From the NCBI GenBank assembly GCA_025361645.1, contig JANYKI010000110.1:1-33996 (forward strand): a DNA stretch of 33,996 nucleotides, given 5' to 3'. This document shows positions 6,714 to 31,014 of the stretch, in pieces; within the stretch, counting starts at the first letter, position 1; each line of letters begins with the position of its first letter. Source of the stretch: Methanothrix sp. (GTDB taxonomy: Archaea; Halobacteriota; Methanosarcinia; Methanotrichales; Methanotrichaceae). The translations under genes and the position numbers were made by a program. A model generated the notes under the pieces. That model made no database searches. It was not told where the DNA came from and worked only from the letters and a program-made list of their open reading frames with translations.

Positions 6714-7514
6714 ATGAAGGGAGTAATAGTAATAGTAGTTGTGTTGGCAATTGCCCTTATAGGAGGCTGCAACACCGTGCTAGCTAATCCACCACTGGTG
6801 CCACCAGTTCAGTATGAACAGTTCTGTGAAGCACAAAAAGTGTCTGGAACGGGAATTATCGATGTCAGCACATCGATAATCGACAAAAAGATCGCACTTG
6901 AATACTACAACACCATGGCAGGCGACGGCGACTTGGAGTTGGACTCTGAGCATGCTTACTCTCAGGATGCTGAGAAGCTCATGAGGAATGTAAGCTCAGT
7001 AAACGGCGGCGACAAGTCTGGCCTCAACCTCTACGAGACCACTAAGCTGACTTATGCTGGCGAGACGCCTCTGACCGGCGGCAAGTACCTGCATTCCAAG
7101 GCATTCTACGGCGGCATCGGCGCTGATGTTCAGGAGATGTTCTCTGTAAATGAGATGGAGAAGGATGAAACTGCATTCTTTGCCTCCACGACGCCTTATC
7201 AGCCGATGGCAAATGTCAGCCCGGAGGACTTGATCAAGAGGCTCAAGGAAGCAGGAAGAGACACAGAGGAGGTCGAATATCTCATGACGGCCAGCAATGA
7301 GATCTATGTTCCGTCCCATCTCATTGGTCTCGAGACCAAGAACTCCTTCAATGGTACCTGGGGCACCGATGCCAAGTGGCACAAGATATTCTACAAGGAT
7401 ATCAAGGCCCACGAGATGTTCACAGGAACCTTCGAGGCCGAGAAGACCATAAAGTTCCATGAGAATCCCGTGCCCGACAAAATCCAAGCGCCCTGTGATG
7501 GCATTGACTGCTAG
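6714..7514 (+). CDS. Secreted or lipid-anchored protein of unknown function
   Basis: I do not recognise this 266-aa family. A hydrophobic N-terminus (residues 3-18) is followed by LIGGC, a lipobox-like motif with Cys19; cleavage after VLA at 22-24 is the alternative. The mature part is acidic and rich in Tyr, Asn and Gly, with several N-glycosylation sequons (NVS, NVSS, NGT) and a Cys pair at the extreme C-terminus (APCDGIDC). These features suit an envelope protein. The gene stands alone with a strong TATA box, a structured leader and a G-rich ribosome site (gggggcg). Its body is dominated by GAG, AAG, CTC and ATC codons, suggesting high expression. A T-run (7532-7537) follows the stop. A role in the sheath or cell surface is possible but unproven. 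Confidence 0.7.
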   Translation: MKGVIVIVVVLAIALIGGCNTVLANPPLVPPVQYEQFCEAQKVSGTGIIDVSTSIIDKKIALEYYNTMAGDGDLELDSEHAYSQDAEKLMRNVSSVNGGDKSGLNLYETTKLTYAGETPLTGGKYLHSKAFYGGIGADVQEMFSVNEMEKDETAFFASTTPYQPMANVSPEDLIKRLKEAGRDTEEVEYLMTASNEIYVPSHLIGLETKNSFNGTWGTDAKWHKIFYKDIKAHEMFTGTFEAEKTIKFHENPVPDKIQAPCDGIDC

Positions 7515-7585
7515 GGAAACCTGGCAGCAAACCTCTTTTTTGATCCGCTTATAAAGTTGGATTTCCAGGCTTTTCTAATTGATTG

Positions 7586-7600
7586 AATAATATAAATATA
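7586..7600 (+). promoter_or_regulatory. TATA box of the 7783 secreted-protein gene
   Basis: The sequence aataatataaatata is a TATA-type element. Transcription would start near 7615-7622, leaving a leader of about 160 nt before the ATG at 7783. Confidence 0.5.
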
Positions 7601-7619
7601 ATCCGTCAGCGAATCGCAA

Positions 7620-7656
7620 ATCTCTATAGGCCATCCTCTCGTGGCGATATATAGAT
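7620..7656 (+). promoter_or_regulatory. Predicted 5'-terminal stem-loop in long leader
   Basis: GCCA (7630-7633) pairs with TGGC (7642-7645). After a small asymmetric internal loop, TATA (7625-7628) pairs with TATA (7648-7651). After a C/T mismatch, ATCT (7620-7623) pairs with AGAT (7653-7656). The 12-bp interrupted hairpin begins where transcription is expected to start. Confidence 0.4.
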
Positions 7657-7736
7657 TAGATCCCAATAGATTCGATCCTGAAAGAAGAGGCTCTTAGAAA
7701 GCAAAAGGAATAAATGGTTAAACCTCACGTACCTAA

Positions 7737-7763
7737 AAAAGGGGTCTGATTGAGTACCCTTTT
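7737..7763 (+). promoter_or_regulatory. Hairpin just upstream of the ribosome site
   Basis: AAAAGGG (7737-7743) is the perfect complement of CCCTTTT (7757-7763), with a 13-nt loop. It ends 6 nt before the strong GGAGGT ribosome site (7770-7775) of the next gene, so it could modulate translation. No riboswitch class is recognised. Confidence 0.35.
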
Positions 7764-7782
7764 GAGAAAGGAGGTTCATGAA

Positions 7783-8190
7783 ATGAAGTTGATTCTTACA
7801 TTATTCGTCGTCACGGTTCTTCTGGCAAGCGTTGCCGTCACGGCCAGCGCTGCCGATGTTCTGGATTTGAGCACACTAGGTAAAAAACCGAGCATAGAGG
7901 CGGTTTCTCTGCCCAGGCTATCGCCCACAATGCCGACTATTGCGCCGACCTCTCTGGGAGGCAACCTGAAAAGCAATGTGCTCGATCTCAGCACTCTGGG
8001 AAAGAAAGCACTGCTCAATGTGAGCACGTCCATGATCAAGGGTCCCACTCCGGTTACAGTTACACCCATGTTCGCCATTAAGAATACCAATGTAACCAAC
8101 CAGGCCGGCTCTGTCATTACCCTGCCCCAGGCAATTTCTGCCAACCCCTCCGTCTACACCCCGCCCATTGCCATATTTGGCGGAGCTTAA
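7783..8190 (+). CDS. Small secreted protein with two VLDLSTLGKK repeats
   Basis: This 135-aa protein has a clear signal peptide (MKLILTLFVVTVLL to TASAAD) and then two copies of VLDLSTLGKK, one directly after the signal peptide and one about 40 residues later. The rest is rich in Pro, Thr, Ser and Val with no predicted enzyme motif. The ATG at 7783 is chosen because GGAGGT lies 7 nt before it; an in-frame TTG at 7750 would put 11 charged residues before the signal peptide. The secreted protein at 21995-22447 carries a related ILDLS motif, also near a Lys pair. The family is unknown; a surface or sheath-associated role is inference. Confidence 0.7.
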   Translation: MKLILTLFVVTVLLASVAVTASAADVLDLSTLGKKPSIEAVSLPRLSPTMPTIAPTSLGGNLKSNVLDLSTLGKKALLNVSTSMIKGPTPVTVTPMFAIKNTNVTNQAGSVITLPQAISANPSVYTPPIAIFGGA

Positions 8191-8201
8191 AGAGGAAGAA
8201 A

Positions 8202-8351
8202 ATGAATGTTTCGCTGAAGGTGGATGGAAAAGCTGTCGATTTAAATGCCTTCACCCAGGAGATTATCGGCAATGTGGCAGTATCTATGGCCGAGTCTCTG
8301 CGTGGAGTGGGCCAGGACTGGAAAGGAATTGAGATCAGAATAGATAAGTGA
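8202..8351 (+). CDS. Conserved-looking 49-aa protein
   Basis: A short open frame encodes 49 residues starting MNVSLKVDGKAVDLNAF and ending EIRIDK. It has a ribosome site (GAGG) 7 nt before the ATG and begins 11 nt after the stop of the secreted-protein gene, so the two are probably co-transcribed. The pattern is a short beta-strand pair, an amphipathic helix (TQEIIGNVAVSMAESL) and a final strand, a plausible mini-domain. It has no signal peptide. Function unknown. The good ribosome site, spacing and ordered composition argue for a real gene. Confidence 0.65.
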   Translation: MNVSLKVDGKAVDLNAFTQEIIGNVAVSMAESLRGVGQDWKGIEIRIDK

Positions 8352-8359
8352 TAAATCTC

Positions 8360-8854
8360 TCAATCCTTCTTGCCTTTTTTAAAGACAGATGCGAGATCAA
8401 TAAAATAAGTGCCTTCCTTGACCGCCATAATCAGTTCATCCCTCTCGAATAGAGACGGCAGATTCAACTCGTAGGTGCCAGGTGCGGTTATCTTGACGCT
8501 CTCCAGAGCCTTCTCTTCCGGCTTGCCATCACTTTGAGAGGTATCATCTAACTGATGGTTATCCTCGAGCTTTTTCTTTAAAGGGAGGCAAAGCGATGGA
8601 GAAAGTGTCGCGCCAGGAGTTGATCTTTGCATAGAGAGTTCTATTGCCATCGGCTCTTTTTCCCTTCTCCTGGGCGGTATCCGCACACCCATAGCCCGAT
8701 TTATGATAGGCTTCGGCGGTAGCACCTCTGCCTTCTGATCCTGCTGCTCTTTTTTCACGAACATGAACTTCTTCCAGCCGCAATTGGGGCAGCCCTTCAG
8801 GATATCCTCTCCTAAGTCGAAGACATTGCTACAACGGGCACAGATATGGGGCAT
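8360..8854 (-). CDS. arvC: Zinc-ribbon protein, OapC/ArvC family
   Basis: The 164-aa protein starts with a four-Cys zinc ribbon (C5, C8, C22, C25; CARC and CPNC). A basic, low-complexity linker (about 45-125) and a C-terminal domain of about 35 residues (APGTYELNLPSLFERDELIM) follow. It is the last gene of a tight operon with a DUF2073 protein and an Era-like GTPase; its ATG directly abuts the stop of the DUF2073 gene. That trio is the known archaeal OapABC/ArvABC set. In haloarchaea ArvA is the small GTPase needed for extracellular vesicle formation, with ArvB and ArvC as its partners. The family call rests on the ribbon plus gene order; the molecular role of ArvC is not established. Confidence 0.75.
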   Translation of the reverse strand: MPHICARCSNVFDLGEDILKGCPNCGWKKFMFVKKEQQDQKAEVLPPKPIINRAMGVRIPPRRREKEPMAIELSMQRSTPGATLSPSLCLPLKKKLEDNHQLDDTSQSDGKPEEKALESVKITAPGTYELNLPSLFERDELIMAVKEGTYFIDLASVFKKGKKD

Positions 8855-21994: not shown

Positions 21995-22447
21995 CTAACT
22001 GCACCCTCCGCATCCGCCTCCTCCGCCTGCCGTCGAGGTTGTGCTGCCCCTCGACCCGGAGATGGGATACATGATGTTCGTGTATCCGGCCAGGTTCTTG
22101 TTTGTCCTATCTTTGGAATAACCGGATAGATCAAGAATCTTTTTTCCGGAAGACTGGGAAGTGCCGGCGCAGGGCACCACAATTGATGGGCTGACCAGAG
22201 AAGAATTATCCATTGAGGTACCATTAATCGAGCTGTTATTCAATGAAGAGTTGTTTGTTGGTACCTGAATGGCCTGAGAGCCGCCCAGGGCCTGTACGGC
22301 TTTTCCGCTGGAGGCAGAAGAAGCCGCCAGATTGAGATCCCCCATATACACCATTCCTCCGCCCGGTGACCACTGGGCTGAGGCATTAAAGGCCAGGGCA
22401 ATGAACATGACACCCAGAGCCAAGGCCGCATATTTTGCAGATAACAT
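21995..22447 (-). CDS. Small secreted protein with ILDLS motif and Gly/Cys tail
   Basis: The 150-aa protein has a signal peptide (MLSAKYAALALGVMFIALAF to NASAQ), then a Ser/Asn-rich region with at least four N-glycosylation sequons (NSS, NSS, NGT, NSS). A segment GKKILDLSGYSKDRTNKNLA follows, and then a striking tail of glycines with two cysteines (GGGGGCGGCS). The ILDLS motif with nearby Lys-Lys resembles the VLDLSTLGKK repeats in the secreted protein at 7783-8190. The tail could anchor or cross-link the protein at the surface; this is inference. A TATA box (22468-22479) sits about 25 nt before the ATG, implying a nearly leaderless mRNA. It lies directly downstream of the CODH/ACS operon terminator. 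Confidence 0.7.
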   Translation of the reverse strand: MLSAKYAALALGVMFIALAFNASAQWSPGGGMVYMGDLNLAASSASSGKAVQALGGSQAIQVPTNNSSLNNSSINGTSMDNSSLVSPSIVVPCAGTSQSSGKKILDLSGYSKDRTNKNLAGYTNIMYPISGSRGSTTSTAGGGGGCGGCS

Positions 22448-22543: not shown

Positions 22544-23959
22544 TTACTTCTTGGGTGGCCAGAAATCCTTCATCCAGCCGATGATGCGTCCGGAGTCTTC
22601 TGGGCCGACCATGATCTTGGTCTTGCCTGCGAAGAGGTCCTCCAGCTCGCCGGAGAACTTGGCAGCCATTCCGGGCAGAACCATTGCAGGATACTTCTGG
22701 TCCTCCCACTTGAAGGCAGCCTCGTTGAAGGAATCCAGGATCTTGGTCGGGCTCAACTGGCCGCCGGCCACAGACGCCTGCACGCCGATTCCGTCGGTAT
22801 TGATGGCGATGATGTAGGCATCGATACCATTGGAGGCGATATCCGACTCTACTGTGTAGTAGGTCAGAGCAAAGTTCGTGGTCAAGAAGACCGGGGACTC
22901 AGGCCCTGGCTTGCCAACCTTGTAGATGCCGGGCTTGACCTGCACGGGCGTCCTCGGATCGGTGTAGATGTTGAAGCGCAGATGCATATCCGGCATCATG
23001 CTGTGAGCCTCAAGCGAGTGCTTGATCATGATGGCTCCGCCGCGGATGACGAAGGCAGCGGTGAGTACAGACTCCCAGTACGCTGCGCGTACCGGATCAT
23101 CAGTGGTCAGCCAGGCGTTGATGGGCAGCACCATGACTGGATAGGCGATATCCCTCTGAGCCTCTTCCACTGCCGCTCTGCGCAGATTGATGAAGTTGAG
23201 CAGGGTCTGCTGCAGCAATTTGCCGTTGGGTGCAGTTCCTGGGTCTAAGATGAGATCGGTGAGGCCCATGCCGGCAAAGGTGACGGCCATGGACTTCAAG
23301 CCATCCAGATCGAAGGGCACGCTGAGGGTCACTGGCACCTTATAGTCAAAGGCGAGCTGTGCGACCTCCTTCCAGTTGTCCTTGTTGGCGGCGTAGATGA
23401 GGGGATTGGCCTTGGCGGCGACCTCAAGTCCGGCCTTAAGGACATTGGGATTAAAGGAGCAGAGGATGAGCGGGAAGTCCGAATTGGCCATGACCGTCTT
23501 GACACAGGCGGCGAACTTAGCCGGGTCATCACTTACGGAACGTACCGCAATCATCTCTACGTTCTGCCACTTGCCGATGTAGAACTTGCGCCAGGTAGAG
23601 ATCTTCTTGACGCGCTCTACAAGCTTTGCCTCATCCATGTTGTCGGCTACATCGTAGGCAAATGGTGGCTTGTTGAAGAAGGTCATCTGGTGGCGGTACA
23701 TGATGTCCTCGCCGCCAACCTTGACCTGCTTTTCTCCGACGCCAATGTATATCATCTTAAGCTCAGGAGCGACGATGCTCCTCAGAGTCTCAAGCTTTTT
23801 GGCGTACTTCTTCTCATCTACCAGTGGAGTGCACTCCTCTACCTTCCTGGTCCTGGATATCAGGCCAGCGGCATAGGCCATGCAGGTCTCCTCTCCGCAC
23901 TTCTTACAGTTGGTCTGTGGAAGCTGCTTGTAAAGGTTAAGCGGGCTAGTTTCCTTCAT
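22544..23959 (-). CDS. cdhE: CODH/ACS gamma subunit (corrinoid iron-sulfur protein, large)
   Basis: CdhE binds the corrinoid together with CdhD and carries the methyl group between tetrahydrosarcinapterin and the acetyl-CoA-forming site. The 471-aa length is normal. The N-terminus has the four Cys that hold a low-potential 4Fe-4S cluster used to re-reduce the corrinoid (C18, C21, C26, C43: CKKCGEETC, then ECTPL). A TIM-barrel domain and a C-terminal corrinoid-binding domain (GVQASVAGGQLSPTKILDSF) follow. It is the last gene of the cdh operon, 6 nt after the cdhD stop. In acetate-users the complex runs in the direction of acetyl-CoA cleavage. Confidence 0.95.
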   Translation of the reverse strand: MKETSPLNLYKQLPQTNCKKCGEETCMAYAAGLISRTRKVEECTPLVDEKKYAKKLETLRSIVAPELKMIYIGVGEKQVKVGGEDIMYRHQMTFFNKPPFAYDVADNMDEAKLVERVKKISTWRKFYIGKWQNVEMIAVRSVSDDPAKFAACVKTVMANSDFPLILCSFNPNVLKAGLEVAAKANPLIYAANKDNWKEVAQLAFDYKVPVTLSVPFDLDGLKSMAVTFAGMGLTDLILDPGTAPNGKLLQQTLLNFINLRRAAVEEAQRDIAYPVMVLPINAWLTTDDPVRAAYWESVLTAAFVIRGGAIMIKHSLEAHSMMPDMHLRFNIYTDPRTPVQVKPGIYKVGKPGPESPVFLTTNFALTYYTVESDIASNGIDAYIIAINTDGIGVQASVAGGQLSPTKILDSFNEAAFKWEDQKYPAMVLPGMAAKFSGELEDLFAGKTKIMVGPEDSGRIIGWMKDFWPPKK

Positions 23960-23965
23960 TGTCTC

Positions 23966-25318
23966 TCACACCCCCATCTTGAGCCAGGCGGCAGTATCGG
24001 GCGTCTTAGCCTCAATTCTTCCCATCAGGGACTGAGTGATCTCATGCACATAGGCAACAGCCGTTGGATGCATCATCATGAAGATGTCCACACCGGCCAT
24101 AGCCAGAGAATATCCTGTCAAAATCTCCCAGATTGGGCCTCTAAGCATGCGGTCTCCCCAGTCGGAGTCGTCCTTGTTGGGTGAGCGGACCATCCAGGAC
24201 TCTCTGACACCCCAGGCGTTGGTGGTGCCGGAGGACATGGGGAAAGTCAGCTCTTCGTCGCCCTTTAGAGCGCCGAGGCGAATTCTCTCCATGTTGGAGT
24301 AGGCGAAGTCCAGGCCGTAAGCGAGCGCGGCTGTGGTTGGATCCATGACGATGGACTCGCGGGGAACGCCGGCGACCTTCATGAGCTTCCGATTCAGCTC
24401 CTTCTGAGAGTTAATCTCAAGCTGTGTCCAGGCGAGGCACACATGTCCGTTGTCCACACAGGCCTTGCCTATCTTCTCCCAATCCATGTTCAGGTTGGCG
24501 GAGGCGATGAGGACGCGCTCGCCCTGGGCAGCCTCTGCCGCCTTGGAGAGCACTATTGGGTCCTTGGTGGGGTTGCCGGATCCGCCGATACAGATTGGCA
24601 CATCCACAGCTTGAAGAACCTCTTCCACCGTCTTGACAGCCTCTTGAGCAGAGGTGTCCTTGAGGAGCGGATCAGTGCTGATCAGGTGAACGGTGACCAT
24701 GTCGGCGCCGTACTTCTTGACGGCCTTCTTGGCCCACTCGCCTGGAGAGTTGATGACGTCCTCATAGTGCACCTTGACGGCCTTGGCCATGCCGATGGGC
24801 ATGTCGAAGACGTCCATGGTGATCTTGGGGGCATGAGGCATGGCTGCATCCGGGAAGAAAGGCATAGCCTTCTCGCCGCCCAGCTTGACCACATGACCAC
24901 GGCTTCCGCCGTTCGCTTTGGTAGCGCCCAGTGTGACTTCCTGAATGGTGTTCCTCCAGGTCTTGTCAACGCCGACGGCAAACTTGGCGCTCGCCAAGGT
25001 TGATGCCACCCTAAAGGCCGGCACAGCCGCAGCCAGAGCAGCCAGATCCTTAGGAGCCGGAGAAATTGCCTGCGCGATAGCTACCGGCTGGAGCAGATTC
25101 TCTACGGGATAGCCTACCGCCTTGGCGAAGTTCATAAGCTGCATGGCGATCTTGGCCGCCTCTTGTCCGAAATAGTATGCAAACAGGGGGCCTACGCCGC
25201 CAGCACCTACATCTATTTCTATCTCTACATCACCCTCGATCTTTAATCCCTCGAGGGATTGAACATTCATTTCTGCTAATGTCTTATTAAGGTCAGATAA
25301 AGAGATCTTCTCTGCCAT
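23966..25318 (-). CDS. cdhD: CODH/ACS delta subunit (corrinoid protein, small)
   Basis: CdhD is the partner of CdhE in the corrinoid methyl-transfer module. The 450-aa protein has a family-typical N-terminal segment ([20 protein letters not shown]) and then a TIM-barrel with [34 protein letters not shown] and [20 protein letters not shown], all conserved in CdhD and in its bacterial counterpart AcsD. GAGGGTGA precedes the ATG. It sits between cooC (11-nt gap) and cdhE (6-nt gap), so the three are translated from one mRNA. Confidence 0.95.
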
Positions 25319-25329
25319 TCAAATCACCC

Positions 25330-26091
25330 TCACAGGCCCAGTTTCCCGACGATCTGCGTCATTTCTTGTACTGCAGGCGATTCATCGGGAAGGCCCATCA
25401 ATGGATCTCCCACTAAATCGAATTTGGCTAAGCTTTCATCATAGGGGATAGTGCCGATAACCAACAGGTCGATGCCTTTAGCATTCTCAAGAACCTTATC
25501 CTTGCTTCCCGCGGTGACCTTGTTGACGATCACATAGAGATTTTTATACTGTAGCTCAATCTCGCGGGCAGTGTCACGAATGCGCTCGCCCGTGGTAAGC
25601 CCTCTTCTGGACTCGTCCGTCACAACGATTAGATCGTCGAGGTCGGGAATGGTCTTCCTGCTGAAATGCTCCAGGCCCGCCGGCGTGTCAATGATGATCA
25701 GATCGTAGTTGGCCGTGGTCTTATCCATAACGGCACGCAGAAGATTGTTGACAAAACAGTAACATCCAGATCCTTCCGGCTTACCCATGACAAGAAGATC
25801 ATAGCCCTCCTCCTCCAAGAGAATCTCGAAGAGCTTGGCCTCAAGAAGCGCCTGCTTGTCAGTATCCGGTGAAGCTGTGAACCGGGACTGCTGCACGAAC
25901 TCCCTCATGTCGCCAATGGTCTTTCCCGCCTTTGCGCCCAGCGCATCAGCCAGGTTGGCGTCAGGATCCGCATCGATTGCAAGTATTCGGTATTTTTTTC
26001 CGGAATTCTTTACAAGGTATCTAATAAGCATCGCGGTCACGGCTGTCTTGCCGGTGCCGCCCTTACCGGTTACCGCTATTACTTTCCCCAA
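25330..26091 (-). CDS. cooC: CooC/AcsF-type nickel-insertion ATPase
   Basis: The 253-aa protein is a MinD-type ATPase with the deviant Walker A GKGGTGKT (9-16), the switch segment DADPDANLADALG, and the CxC motif CYC (C110, C112) that binds nickel in CooC dimers. It matures the Ni-Fe-S C-cluster of CdhA or the A-cluster of CdhC. Translation starts at TTG 26091, preceded by AGGAAGG, 13 nt after the 56-aa gene. Its place between cdhC and cdhD matches the usual archaeal order, apart from the two inserted mini-genes. Confidence 0.93.
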   Translation of the reverse strand: MGKVIAVTGKGGTGKTAVTAMLIRYLVKNSGKKYRILAIDADPDANLADALGAKAGKTIGDMREFVQQSRFTASPDTDKQALLEAKLFEILLEEEGYDLLVMGKPEGSGCYCFVNNLLRAVMDKTTANYDLIIIDTPAGLEHFSRKTIPDLDDLIVVTDESRRGLTTGERIRDTAREIELQYKNLYVIVNKVTAGSKDKVLENAKGIDLLVIGTIPYDESLAKFDLVGDPLMGLPDESPAVQEMTQIVGKLGL

Positions 26092-26104: not shown

Positions 26105-26275
26105 TTATTTTTTCCTTATGATAACTTCCGCTACGTGGATGGATGCGCCTCTAAGCTCAATGGTCATTCCACCCGATGATGATGCTGGCATAGCGAAAGC
26201 CGGAGCTGCTGCGCCTGCTGCCGCAGGTGCGGCCGCGACTGGAGCGTCTTCTTTTTTCTTAAGCTTAAGCTGCAT
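26105..26275 (-). CDS. 56-aa Ala/Pro-hinged protein in the CODH/ACS operon, copy 2
   Basis: This short gene encodes 56 residues. It begins MQLKLKKKED, continues with an Ala/Pro/Gly hinge (APVAAAPAAAGAAAPAFAMP), then a Ser stretch, and ends in GGMTIELRGASIHVAEVII then RKK. It is a clear paralogue of the 57-aa protein just upstream: the same MQLKLK start, the same GAAAPAF hinge end, and the same GG-xxxx-L-xx-A-x-I-xxx-x-V tail. A ribosome site (GAGGGAG) lies 5-6 nt before the ATG, and cooC begins 13 nt after the stop. No known family is recognised. The flexible hinge plus short beta tail resemble swinging linkers of carrier domains; a docking or tethering role in CODH/ACS is inference. Confidence 0.8.
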   Translation of the reverse strand: MQLKLKKKEDAPVAAAPAAAGAAAPAFAMPASSSGGMTIELRGASIHVAEVIIRKK

Positions 26276-26356
26276 AATATCTCCCTCACTTTAAACTAAA
26301 ACGATAGCATTCGCCTCGCAAAATCTGCCTCTCCCAAAAAAGGGAATAGGCAGACT

Positions 26357-26530
26357 CTACTTAGCGAGTACTACCTTGTCTATGCTGATCTTGGCATCCT
26401 TGAGTATCAGCTTAATGCCGCCGGTGCTGCCGGACATGGAAAAAGCTGGTGCTGCTGCCCCTGCTGCTGCAGCCGGTGCGGCTGCTGGAGCCGCGGCGGC
26501 CGGTGTCTTTGGCTTGAGTTTTAACTGCAT
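26357..26530 (-). CDS. 57-aa Ala/Pro-hinged protein in the CODH/ACS operon, copy 1
   Basis: The gene encodes 57 residues, MQLKLKPKTP, then an Ala/Pro hinge of about 20 residues ending GAAAPAFSM, a short SGST turn, and the tail GGIKLILKDAKISIDKVVL then AK. A strong ribosome site (GAGGGTGA) lies 7 nt before the ATG. It starts 43 nt after the cdhC stop and is 81 nt upstream of its paralogue. The tail alternates hydrophobic and polar residues as a two-strand beta hairpin would. The two copies share the ends but differ in the hinge sequence, which suggests selection on design. From memory, Methanosarcina CdhC ends in an Ala/Pro/Met-rich extension; these may be a detached counterpart, which is unverified. 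Confidence 0.8.
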   Translation of the reverse strand: MQLKLKPKTPAAAAPAAAPAAAAGAAAPAFSMSGSTGGIKLILKDAKISIDKVVLAK

Positions 26531-26573
26531 AGATTTTCACCCTCTTTGATATTTACTCATTCGCGAATTTAGC

Positions 26574-27980
26574 TCACTCGAGAACGCCATCAGCCTGCAG
26601 AGCCTCGACGACCTGCATGAACTGGTTTTCGGTGAGAGCCATCTCGGACTTGACGGTATCAATGTTGATGTCTCCGCCCGTCTTCTCGATATAGGCCAGG
26701 ACCTTCGCCTTGATCTCATCGGAAATATCTTCCAGAACCCAGCCTTCGGTGATCTTCTTGCCGTCCACTTTCCTGGTGACGCCGTTAACAACGGGGTGAT
26801 CGACCTTGAGCAGGAAGGCCTTGAGGGCGGTGAGATCCTTGGCATCGTCCTCGGTGGCGATCTTGGCCATCATGTCCTCATCGATGCCTGCCTTTACTCT
26901 CTCCTTGAGGCCCTTGGACATCCAGGCGATCCTTCTCCAGCCGCCGTCGGCCTGAAGGAACTTGGGGGAGAAGTAGTATAGAATGCCCATTCCCAGGAAT
27001 CCTACAATCTGCTTGCCGCCGCCCGTCTGGCCTGCCATGGTGGAGAAGGGAAGGCCGTTGGGGGTTGCGCCCTTGAAGTCGCGGTCGGCTAGACCAATGC
27101 CGTCAACCTCGGGCATGTAGAAGCCGATGGTCTCGAAGCAGCCACAGGAGGTGTGGGGTGCATCGAAGAATGTGTACAGCTTCATCATGCTGTACTCGCC
27201 ACCGGACCTCTTGGCGGCCATCTCGTTGATGGCTTCATACTCGCCGGTAACAGCGTCAATTGCCGTTCCCTTGGGTATGGGGAACTGGGGGCCCTCTGGG
27301 TCTACCTTGGCGGCAGCGCGTCCATCGAACCAGGTGATAGCTCCGCACAGGGATGGCCTGTCCGGGGTGACCACACAGGCGCTGGTGGGGGCGAAGGCCT
27401 GGCACAGTGTGCAGCCGTAGAAGACATCTACGTCCTCATCGTGCAGTCCCTTGGCGCGCTCGTCACGTGTCTTGTAGACGGCCATGGCCTTAGCCAGCTC
27501 TTCCTTGACCTTGGCGGGGTCGGTGATAATGGTGATCTCCATCTTCTCGATGAAGGGCATCTCGGCCTTGTACAGATCGATGATGGGAGTAAAGATCTCT
27601 TTCCAGGAGGTTACACCCTTCTTGGCCAAGCTCTTGCCGACTCTCATCCAGATATCGTATCTCTGGTTGAGATGCATGAGACCGCTGATGTAGGAAAGCA
27701 GGGCGTGGTTGCGCCTCTCGATGATGGACTCCAGATCCTTCTCGATCTTTTCGCCGCCGACCTTGAATATCATGCCGAAGGGAATGGTGGAGCCTTCCTT
27801 GATATCCTTGAGCTCAGGACCGATGACAGTAACCCTTCCATCCTGTATTTCATCCATGGGTGCCGACAGGGACAGCTCGAATCCGTCTGCCTTGGGGCCG
27901 CCCAACTCTACCCATAGATCGTCCTTTCTGATTCTCTCGCCCTCATACATAGGGGATATATCCAACTTTATGTCTGCCAT
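26574..27980 (-). CDS. cdhC: CODH/ACS beta subunit (acetyl-CoA synthase, A-cluster)
   Basis: CdhC makes and breaks the acetyl C-C and thioester bonds at the A-cluster, a 4Fe-4S cube bridged to two nickels. The 468-aa protein carries C190, C193, C202 and C212 (GCTLC, SAC, SLCG) and the CGC motif C279-G-C281 that binds the distal nickel. The C-terminal 75 residues form a helical region (WVLEDISDEIKAKVLAYIEK). GAGGTG precedes the ATG. It follows cdhB and precedes the two small Ala-rich genes. It lacks the bacterial AcsB N-terminal CO-channel domain, as expected for the archaeal form. Confidence 0.96.
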   Translation of the reverse strand: MADIKLDISPMYEGERIRKDDLWVELGGPKADGFELSLSAPMDEIQDGRVTVIGPELKDIKEGSTIPFGMIFKVGGEKIEKDLESIIERRNHALLSYISGLMHLNQRYDIWMRVGKSLAKKGVTSWKEIFTPIIDLYKAEMPFIEKMEITIITDPAKVKEELAKAMAVYKTRDERAKGLHDEDVDVFYGCTLCQAFAPTSACVVTPDRPSLCGAITWFDGRAAAKVDPEGPQFPIPKGTAIDAVTGEYEAINEMAAKRSGGEYSMMKLYTFFDAPHTSCGCFETIGFYMPEVDGIGLADRDFKGATPNGLPFSTMAGQTGGGKQIVGFLGMGILYYFSPKFLQADGGWRRIAWMSKGLKERVKAGIDEDMMAKIATEDDAKDLTALKAFLLKVDHPVVNGVTRKVDGKKITEGWVLEDISDEIKAKVLAYIEKTGGDINIDTVKSEMALTENQFMQVVEALQADGVLE

Positions 27981-28013: not shown

Positions 28014-28577
28014 TTATTTCTGCATTGCTGCGATTACTTCGTCCACGGCGGCGTGATAGTCGTCGGGGGTGAAGGCCATGTTGCCAAAGGTCATATTCGC
28101 ATTGACGTGGTAGTACCGGTCAACGGATATGCGCTTGATGTCCCGGTTGAAGTTCTTCAATGTGGAGAACATGGCGTTGGCGAATTTGTAGAAGATGCCC
28201 ATAAAGATAACGGCATCGTACTGTCCCTGTCCATCCAAGCCCTTCCAGTCGGGGAAGCGCAGGTAGTTGGTCAGGGGGTGCAGGCCTATCTGGTAAACGT
28301 TCTCCAGGTAGCCTCTGTCTACAAAGCCCTTCACGGAATGCGCCGTGGCGGCGATGGGAATGCCCATCTTGCCCATCTCGATCATCTTATCGAACATGAT
28401 GGGGTCGTCAAAAAGCTCTGCCCCCACAACGAGCAGTGGCCTCTTGGCCTTCTTGATTATAGCGCCCATAACCTTTGGCATGTAGCACTTGGCCATCTCC
28501 GGCCCGGGAATCTGGGCCATCTCAAAGGGAATGGGGTTCCTGGTGGTGTCAATGCCCTTCTTAACTTCTGCTGCCAT
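28014..28577 (-). CDS. cdhB: CODH/ACS epsilon subunit
   Basis: CdhB forms the alpha2-epsilon2 carbon monoxide dehydrogenase with CdhA; its exact role is unsettled, possibly FAD-linked electron transfer. The 187-aa length is normal. It has a Rossmann-like fold with RPLLVVGAELFDDP and AATAHSVKGFVDRG, conserved in the family. GGAGGAG precedes the ATG at 28577, 19 nt after the cdhA stop, and cdhC follows after 33 nt. Confidence 0.95.
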   Translation of the reverse strand: MAAEVKKGIDTTRNPIPFEMAQIPGPEMAKCYMPKVMGAIIKKAKRPLLVVGAELFDDPIMFDKMIEMGKMGIPIAATAHSVKGFVDRGYLENVYQIGLHPLTNYLRFPDWKGLDGQGQYDAVIFMGIFYKFANAMFSTLKNFNRDIKRISVDRYYHVNANMTFGNMAFTPDDYHAAVDEVIAAMQK

Positions 28578-28596: not shown

Positions 28597-31014
28597 TCAC
28601 TTCTTGGTCCTGATCTTGCGCGGGAGATTGGTCGGGTCGAAGCTCACATCAGCGGGCCGCAGCGGTCCGGTGAGAATCTTCTTGGCCTTCCAGTCGATCG
28701 TCCAGCCGTGCTTTGACTCCAGCTCCTTCATCATCATTTCCTTGTATGTGATGGGGAGATCTTTGGCGTCGCGGACATAGATATGCCAGTCGTCAGGCAG
28801 CTTGCCGCAGTACTTCATGGATATGTCGCAGTAGTGCGTCAGCTTGATCGATCTGCCGATACTGTTATCTGAAGGCCGCAGGCAGAGCTTGGCCATCTCA
28901 ACCATTGCCTCTTCCTTGGTCTCGGCAATGTAGAGCATCGCCTCAGGTGCGGGCTCGATCTGCTGCATTTTGCCGTCGCGAGCATCGATGACCATCCAGT
29001 CTTCTGGCTTGTCCGCCCTGCCGATGAAAGAGCGGCGGTACATGACAGAGTGAGGCTGAACGACCACGGGAATGCCTAACCGGTTGCAGCCAGTAGCGAT
29101 GGCAGCAGCCTTCTGAGAGTATGCTCCCCAGGCCACGCCGCAGGCACCAACTTTGTTCAGGATGTAGTCGGCGATATCGTCGAAGTTGCCCCTGTGGTTT
29201 CTGTGGGCGAATATGGTGGCCACCTTGATGGCAGCGTCGCCGATATTGGCATTGGAGACGCACGAGCCGGTGTTGCAGATGTTGCGACCGTCAAAGCCGC
29301 CGGGATACTGCTCCCAGATAGTCTTGCCATCTACATCGGTGTAGAGGGACATATCCATAGCCATGCATCCAGAAGTGACAACGATGTAGCCGCGGTCTAC
29401 GAACTCCTTGGCCATGTCGTAGGCTTCCTTGGTACCATTAGGATAGTTGCTGCATCCGACCAGAGCTATGACTCCGGGAATGGTGCCAAGCACAATTGGT
29501 GCTCCGACAGACCTGATCTCAGTGTCTCGGGCAGGCCCGCGTCCGGATCTCATCTTGAACTTCTGATCCTTGACAACCTGACGGTTGGCATACTCGAATA
29601 GGTCCAGGATGTTTATGCCCTGTGGGCAGACCTGCTCGCACCTGCCGCATCCTACGCAAATCTCGTAAGTGTTGGAGAATGTGGTCATGTCGCCCTTTAC
29701 TGCATCCCCAATGAGCTTGCTGATCCTTATGTGGGGCGGGCAGACGAAGGCGCAATCGTTGCAGGTTGTGCACTTCTTGATGCCTTCCTGGAACTGCGCC
29801 TCTGTGATCAGGTTCTGGATATGAGCCTCAGCACGCTTGGGCTTAACGGCAATGGCTGTCCTTATGCCCACAATTCCTGCTTTGACGGGATCGAGAATGG
29901 CAACGCCTGGAACCCTGAAGCTCACCAGGTCATCCACTATGGCATCAACAGAATCGTTGGTCCTGTCCACCAGTCCCAGCATGATCTTGTCCGTAGTAGC
30001 AATTACGGGAATCTTGCGCTTTTTAGAATCTTCAAGTACATCGCACCAGACGCACTGCTCATCTACCATGACGCAGTCCATGACGCCGGAGCGGACCATC
30101 TTTCTCCACCAGCCGATAGCGCCAGCTACCTTAGGCTTCATGCCTATGCCGGCGGGAACCTTGGCTTCGCCCTTGCCCAGACCAATTCTGTTCAGGTCAT
30201 GAGCTGTGCAGCAGACGCCGCCTATGTCCACCTTGTCCCAGAGACCGTTCTCTTCTGCATAGATCATGGCCTCGGCACCTGCTGCCAGGTTGTGGCCGTA
30301 AGCGATGAGAACACCCTTGCTCTGGTCCAGAGTACCCATGCCGATCTCAATGATGGGGGCATCAGCTGCGCCACGGGGCATGTTGTAAGCCACAATCTGC
30401 AACATGTCGCAGATCTCCATGCCCAGCAAGTCCAACATACCGGCATGCAGAGCTTTGGACTCGAAGTCGATGTATGCGCTCTCTTGACCGGTGTGGGTAG
30501 CTGCCAGAAGCTGCACGACCCCTTCTTCAAGGTAATAGAGTCCTTCGTTGAAGTCCTTGAAGCTCTTGGGCTTGGTGCCCATGATGGTCTGGTACAGGGG
30601 AGAGTCTACCAGGATCTCGTCGCCCATGTCGAACTTCATGTCACCGAACTTGTCCATGCACCAGTGATAGAGATGCCTGCCGTGGGCGGAGTGAGCACAG
30701 GTGCCCATCAAGCATGCTATTAAAACAATCTTGCCGCAAGCTCCGGCCTGATCAATGCCGCAGGCTCCGCGCTTGTTTCCGGTAAGGTCGCATGGACCAT
30801 AGGTACAAAGAGTGCATGTATCGTCTGCCGGGGCGTACATGATCTTGTATCTGTTAGCGATCATATGATCCCAGGATCGGAGCGTTGCCACACCGGGCTT
30901 GGGATGTGGTCCCATCTCCTGGTCCCACTCATCCGCTTCCTTAACGACAGCCCCTATGTTGATCTGGACGTTCTTCATGTCCTCAACCGAAAAGCTGCCC
31001 TCTCTTGTTGCCAT
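28597..31014 (-). CDS. cdhA: CODH/ACS alpha subunit (carbon monoxide dehydrogenase, C-cluster)
   Basis: CdhA oxidises CO to CO2 at the nickel-iron C-cluster and feeds electrons to ferredoxin. The 805-aa protein has an N-terminal set of Cys for the B/D clusters (CTLCTYGPCDLTGNKRGACG). Two ferredoxin-type 4Fe-4S motifs mark the archaeal alpha subunit (CTTCNDCAFVCP and CVGCGRCEQVCP). C-cluster ligands lie in the C-terminal half, including ALVGCSNYPN, VTSGCMAMDM, NTGSCVSN and GACGVAWGAY. GGAGG lies 9 nt before the ATG at 31014. It is the first gene of the operon, with a TATA box at 31095-31103 and a leader of about 60 nt. Confidence 0.96.
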   Translation of the reverse strand: MATREGSFSVEDMKNVQINIGAVVKEADEWDQEMGPHPKPGVATLRSWDHMIANRYKIMYAPADDTCTLCTYGPCDLTGNKRGACGIDQAGACGKIVLIACLMGTCAHSAHGRHLYHWCMDKFGDMKFDMGDEILVDSPLYQTIMGTKPKSFKDFNEGLYYLEEGVVQLLAATHTGQESAYIDFESKALHAGMLDLLGMEICDMLQIVAYNMPRGAADAPIIEIGMGTLDQSKGVLIAYGHNLAAGAEAMIYAEENGLWDKVDIGGVCCTAHDLNRIGLGKGEAKVPAGIGMKPKVAGAIGWWRKMVRSGVMDCVMVDEQCVWCDVLEDSKKRKIPVIATTDKIMLGLVDRTNDSVDAIVDDLVSFRVPGVAILDPVKAGIVGIRTAIAVKPKRAEAHIQNLITEAQFQEGIKKCTTCNDCAFVCPPHIRISKLIGDAVKGDMTTFSNTYEICVGCGRCEQVCPQGINILDLFEYANRQVVKDQKFKMRSGRGPARDTEIRSVGAPIVLGTIPGVIALVGCSNYPNGTKEAYDMAKEFVDRGYIVVTSGCMAMDMSLYTDVDGKTIWEQYPGGFDGRNICNTGSCVSNANIGDAAIKVATIFAHRNHRGNFDDIADYILNKVGACGVAWGAYSQKAAAIATGCNRLGIPVVVQPHSVMYRRSFIGRADKPEDWMVIDARDGKMQQIEPAPEAMLYIAETKEEAMVEMAKLCLRPSDNSIGRSIKLTHYCDISMKYCGKLPDDWHIYVRDAKDLPITYKEMMMKELESKHGWTIDWKAKKILTGPLRPADVSFDPTNLPRKIRTKK

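Follow-up and report, generated by a model that had tools for sequence, protein, structure and literature searches.

The window, by which we mean the whole 33,996-nucleotide stretch of Methanothrix sp. DNA that was analysed, carries a cdh operon on its minus strand in the order cdhA, cdhB, cdhC, mini A, mini B, cooC, cdhD, cdhE (Table 1). The two short genes that the initial annotation had placed between cdhC and cooC were recovered as open reading frames of 57 and 56 aa, each with the ribosome-binding-type sequence directly upstream that had been claimed for it. Their common plan was also confirmed: both begin with MQLKLK, continue into an Ala/Pro/Gly linker with GAAAPAF, and close with a GG, a tail of alternating hydrophobic residues and a terminal Lys, a resemblance far beyond chance. 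The CdhC encoded upstream is 97% identical to the CdhC of a Methanothrix sp. A further ORF of 150 aa lies 3' of cdhE (window 21995-22447, minus strand) and showed no Pfam or NCBIfam match.

Table 1. Positions in the window of the cdh genes, the minis and their parts, with the basis of each assignment.
Feature	Position	Strand	Basis
cdhA (CODH alpha)	28597..31014	(-)	TIGR00314, 1055.7 bits
cdhB (CODH epsilon)	28014..28577	(-)	TIGR00315, 148 bits
cdhC (acetyl-CoA synthase, beta), 468 aa, without fused tail	26574..27980	(-)	NF003379/TIGR00316 and 9c0s_E alignment
Winged-helix-like C-terminal domain of CdhC (~residues 415-468)	26577..26738	(-)	AF2 of relative, Pfam matches in relatives, Foldseek
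Ribosome-binding-type sequence of mini A, GAGGGTGA	26537..26544	(-)	Sequence directly 5' of A
Mini A (57 aa), a detached tail of CdhC, type A	26357..26530	(-)	Homology and dN/dS
Mini A N-terminal strand motif MQLKLKPK	26507..26530	(-)	Kept in all split forms
Mini A Ala/Pro/Gly linker with PAFSM motif	26423..26506	(-)	
Mini A tail module GGIKLILKDAKISIDKVVLA	26363..26422	(-)	Same module as CdhC C-terminus
A-B intergenic stem-loop	26323..26355	(-)	Recurs in relatives
Ribosome-binding-type sequence of mini B, GTGAGGGAG	26281..26289	(-)	Sequence directly 5' of B
Mini B, 56 aa, N-terminal motif and linker plan as in A, tail type B	26105..26275	(-)	
Mini B tail module GGMTIELRGASIHVAEVIIR	26114..26173	(-)	Same type as Archaeoglobaceae micro-gene
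cooC-like nickel-insertion ATPase	25330..26091	(-)	P-loop ATPase matches and position in cdh operon
cdhD	23966..25318	(-)	NF003375, 684.5 bits
cdhE	22544..23959	(-)	NF003195, 553.3 bits

The A/B pair recurs at the equivalent site in Methanotrichaceae genomes whose contigs span that site, and the family yielded 31 different A sequences and 29 different B sequences. No tail A match was found in three of the 18 Methanotrichaceae genomes searched, one of which is 85% complete (G322) and two of which are drafts (G326 and G327); at locus L113, mini B is broken by an assembly gap. Pooled Nei-Gojobori dN/dS within the genus was 0.135 for A and 0.097 for B, purifying and not near 1. By region, mini A showed 0.078 in the N-terminal motif, 0.27 in the linker and 0.034 in the tail, and mini B 0.023, 0.145 and 0.100, respectively. 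The minis are coding sequence conserved through the whole of the Methanotrichaceae and under purifying selection. Pfam and NCBIfam scans assigned them to no family of their own and returned only weak matches to the CdhC C-terminus.

The tail of mini A matches the ends of CdhC proteins. The module GGIKLxLK[ND]AKIxIDKV (tail A) ends nearly every archaeal CdhC. Mini A matched Methanosarcina thermophila CdhC (9c0s_E, residues 417-466) in a PDB search with E 1.1e-5, and a tail-A profile built from 39 rows matched exactly one PDB sequence, the same M. thermophila CdhC at residues 447-465 (E 1.7e-8). When relatives were searched with mini A, good matches outside the family were CdhC-length frames of 466-492 aa only. 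Because the match is to the C-terminal end of M. thermophila CdhC, mini A is that tail on its own, and sequence comparison strongly supports homology between the two. The window CdhC matched NF003379/TIGR00316 only to profile positions 416/418 and aligned to residues 1-403 only of 9c0s_E. The minis are not covalently part of CdhC, which ends earlier; they are separate ORFs, each with its own start and ribosome site. The suggestion in the initial annotation that the minis replace a C-terminal extension found on CdhC in relatives is directly supported by A, whose tail matches the Methanosarcina extension that the window CdhC lacks.

The C-terminal extension of M. thermophila CdhC, of about 75 aa, has been described as "of unknown function" and was not resolved by cryo-EM (PMC11474084). 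It was considered flexible and likely to be involved in swinging between CODH and CFeSP, and a truncated beta form and a beta(gamma-delta) subcomplex had been isolated in earlier work (PMC11474084). Like this extension (residues 398-472), the minis combine a tail of about 20 aa, a low-complexity flexible linker and a P-A-F-x-M type motif, and are located behind the ACS core. Unlike it, they are separate genes with two tail types and a new N-terminal strand, and Methanothrix CdhC, unlike M. thermophila CdhC, ends in a winged helix. The linker motif P-[AGS]-[FML]-x-[MLV] was enriched over shuffled sequences in both arrangements (fused, 36/84 vs 3.1; split, 23/37 vs 0.2). This motif, shared by fused CdhC linkers and minis (window 26423-26506, for example), is possibly a second anchor.

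The winged-helix-like end of CdhC had been missed in the initial annotation. All Methanotrichaceae CdhC examined carry about 68 residues after the core, ending in SEGQFMQVVEALQADGVLE or close variants. In Pfam, Methanoliparum CdhC has an HTH_24 match at its end (24.4 bits, cut-off 21.9) and the CdhC of locus L062 (G043) has a MarR_2 match (32 bits, cut-off 27); the window CdhC sequence alone gave no significant Pfam match for a winged helix. The AF2 model of a relative's CdhC end contained helices at 419-432, 438-445 and 449-461 and a strand at 465-468, and Foldseek returned winged helices with probability 0.99-1.00, yet with a best E of only 0.0067. The order of the helices and the short strand resemble those of MarR/HTH_24-type winged helices; unlike these, the CdhC end stops at the wing, belongs to an enzyme subunit and shows no sign of DNA binding. 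Split-type CdhC chains stop 0-3 residues past the GVLE strand, before the wing, and the wing hairpin is absent from the chain itself. The CdhC of L062 joins a winged helix, a long charged linker and tail A in one protein, and is an intermediate architecture.

Distribution was assessed across the phylum, in which 189 of 296 genomes had a TIGR00316 match and 165 had tail A, all of the latter among the 189. Among the matches listed, tail A was confined to CdhC-sized or short frames. No fusion of the tail to other proteins was seen among the strong matches listed for the 296 genomes, which leaves no Rosetta-stone partner. Twenty-four TIGR00316-positive genomes had no tail A, and 17 of these fall with bacterial-type ACS having an A1 domain. 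In the seven of the 17 that were inspected, this ACS stops at the core (HPALxMxPLI or similar) and lacks a tail; one is a CODH-ACS fusion, and another (G090) has an A1-type ACS plus a CdhC with a tail just below threshold. Most of the remaining genomes without tail A either had only partial frames or belonged to a single divergent family. The tail goes with ACDS-type ACS, which has no A1 domain. At locus L212 (G041), one archaeal polypeptide combines a C-terminal portion of CODH with a bacterial-type acetyl-CoA synthase; its frame spans at least 913 aa, and 1378 aa by the genome search.

Stand-alone tail A was found in Methanotrichaceae, in Candidatus Methanoliparum and in one further family (f9), with a winged-helix CdhC. 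Wherever contig and assembly allow, a winged-helix CdhC without a fused tail has a stand-alone tail A 3' of it, and stand-alone minis A start with M..KLxLKLKKKE or a close variant. In a tree of CdhC cores, from which tail columns were excluded, f9 grouped with fused-tail families in a clade that was separate and supported, so the split arrangement is found on two or more CdhC backgrounds. It may have arisen repeatedly, may be ancestral with later re-fusion, or may have been transferred.

Mini B carries a second tail type, with the consensus GGxxLEL[RK]GAxIxIxEVVIK (tail B), which was strong only in Methanotrichaceae and Archaeoglobaceae; the tail-B profile matched no solved structure. Archaeoglobaceae have a CdhC with fused tail A plus a separate gene of 27-36 aa that bears just the B-type tail, with a tail pN/pS of 0.24. 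Relative to the cdhC stop, this micro-gene mostly starts at -4, -1 or 0, a spacing that suggests translational coupling. The N-terminal strand motif was present in 0/22 of these micro-genes, in keeping with the lack of a winged helix in Archaeoglobaceae CdhC. Most Archaeoglobaceae loci carry the gene (L021-L046, L127, L136, L137, L139 and L145, with further cases at L150, L158, L169, L173 and L176); it is very small, conserved and easily missed by annotation.

The minis had been read as products of a duplication. A duplication did occur, but the two minis have different types of tail and B has its counterpart in Archaeoglobaceae; the B tail is therefore probably not a recent copy of the A tail. 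By position-specific scoring, all Methanotrichaceae B tails (20/20) scored better with the Archaeoglobaceae B model than with the A model; the reverse comparison gave 9/9, and A tails preferred the B model in 0/12. These scores, together with the location of both genes downstream of cdhC, speak against the alternative that A and B are redundant, B having arisen recently by duplication of A and its tail having converged on the B type. That alternative would account for the similar N-termini and linkers of A and B in most genomes, and it is also favoured by how well Archaeoglobaceae B tails score with A tails from other lineages (27.4 vs 19.3); on balance we consider it rather doubtful. The closeness of Archaeoglobaceae B to A of other lineages is also what marks the tail modules as cousins.

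The minis are thus not an unrelated novelty: they are mostly explained as detached tails accompanied by a matching change of the enzyme's end. Gene fission is the likely origin of the separate tails. As to how they work, we think it probable that the minis are CdhC tails which, once split off, re-dock on the wing-less winged helix by their N-terminal strand and form a flexible tethering arm. In most archaea, CdhC comprises catalytic core, flexible linker and tail module of about 20 aa in one chain. In Methanotrichaceae this link is cut and the tail is supplied in trans by A, which has the ordinary CdhC tail type, and by B. By supplying the wing strand that CdhC lacks, the mini N-terminal strand (M..KLxLKLKKKE) would complete the CdhC winged helix; the Ala/Pro linker would act as the flexible arm, and the tail would dock elsewhere on ACDS, either on CODH alpha/epsilon or on corrinoid gamma/delta. 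So docked, the tail may hold CdhC in the complex while CdhC swings between CODH and the corrinoid protein.

Docking of the strand on the winged helix is what we infer from low-confidence models and from the perfect co-occurrence of the two parts. In two Methanotrichaceae loci (L112 and L114), cdhC, a TGA and mini A naturally lie in one frame, and the L112 read-through, with TGA read as W, was folded by AF2 as a single-chain stand-in (139-aa and 534-aa models). In both models the mini KLTL (476-479) formed the next strand after CdhC strand 465-468, where the wing belongs, although joining of the chains favours a hairpin. The docking strand had a pLDDT of ~46-48 in the 139-aa fragment model and ~64-75 in the 534-aa full model. 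Given this low pLDDT and the hairpin bias of a joined chain, the models lend support to docking but do not demonstrate it. The linker was disordered, with residues 482-515 at pLDDT < 50. A tether between CdhC and the corrinoid or CO-dehydrogenase modules had been among the functions first proposed for the minis; such a role would be compatible with the data.

A competing explanation sees the minis as free-standing subunits that assemble or regulate ACDS, use the fused-tail site on CODH or the corrinoid protein and are not attached to CdhC, their N-terminal strand having another partner or self-assembling. The free B peptide of Archaeoglobaceae, encoded beside a CdhC with fused tail A, has no docking strand; if it is functional, tails can act untethered to CdhC. 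Second clusters in the harundinacea-like genus bear on both readings. These clusters (L215 in G190, L216 in G235, L238 in G328 and L234 in G330) have the order cdhA2-cdhB2-[cdhC2]-miniA2-membrane subunit-HdrD-like, the last encoding an HdrD/TfrB-like Fe-S protein. G235 retains cdhC2, which is missing from at least two genomes, G190 and G328. In G190, mini A2 is intact beside cdhA2-cdhB2, as free-standing action would allow; this could reflect a CODH-binding role or action in trans. In G328, mini A2 has decayed after loss of the cdhC copy, which counts against a role detached from CdhC, as does the occurrence of the N-terminal strand only where CdhC has a wing-less winged helix. Free-standing subunits therefore seem unlikely to us. 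An orphan second cdhC, 79% identical, was also seen at L214 (G004, 7345-8757), far from other cdh genes and with no minis nearby. The second-cluster and orphan cases fit action in trans and a partial dependence of mini A on cdhC.

An extension of the docked-tail reading, which we put forward only tentatively, is that A and B are exchangeable tails that compete for one winged helix and steer CdhC to different partners or states (CODH versus the corrinoid protein, for example), as a switchable non-covalent arm. Such an arm would recall swinging lipoyl and biotinyl domains in its Ala/Pro-rich linker and in the proposed moving of a catalytic part between sites; unlike those arms, the minis have no carrier domain or invariant modifiable lysine, and the whole ACS module would be moved. 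A carrier arm of the lipoyl/biotinyl kind was itself considered and rejected, as the module is only about 20 residues long and the lysine of its DAK/NAK motif is not invariant (K, T, N). The proposed completion of the winged helix resembles donor-strand complementation, in which a strand from another chain completes a fold; for the minis this likeness is conjectural. MtrI and MtrR of Methanosarcina mazei are likewise small proteins, and the enzyme on which they act belongs to the core of methanogenesis (PMC12774963, PMC13370731); unlike them, and apart from the unrelated complex that they serve, the minis derive from a subunit's own tail.

Roughly two-thirds of the methane from methanogens has been attributed to acetate cleavage, in which ACDS is central (PMC11474084). 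If the exchangeable-tail reading is correct, the enzyme at the centre of methane formation from acetate would possess a swinging arm that can be switched. The detached-tail variant appears to be undescribed in the literature searched: cdh genes go unmentioned in the main text of a survey of Methanosarcina mazei small proteins, and no discussion of two tail sites or states of ACDS was found. The second tail type, present as a 27-36 aa gene in Archaeoglobaceae, suggests two such sites or states. The natural cut makes the role of the fused CdhC tail testable, since a tail that is naturally a separate 57-aa protein can be added, removed, labelled or swapped.

Two other explanations can be set aside as highly improbable. 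Shuttling of metal to or from CooC, which the initial annotation had raised, has only the position beside cooC in its favour and conflicts with the origin of the tail in CdhC; a metal carrier was also rejected on the lack of conserved Cys/His ligands, with Cys in 0/31 A and 0/29 B, no His in A and no conserved His in B. A functionless, though translated, remnant of a broken cdhC 3' end would agree with an origin by fission and is contradicted by the strong purifying selection (dN/dS) and by retention in the whole family and two further families.

The region between minis A and B (26276-26356) contains a stem-loop with a U-rich loop, which recurs across the genus with changed stems. The whole intergenic region folds at -26.3 kcal/mol in the window; the consensus fold of the hairpin was weak, for which the alignment is partly to blame. 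The stem-loop may control how much product is made from the genes upstream of it relative to those downstream.
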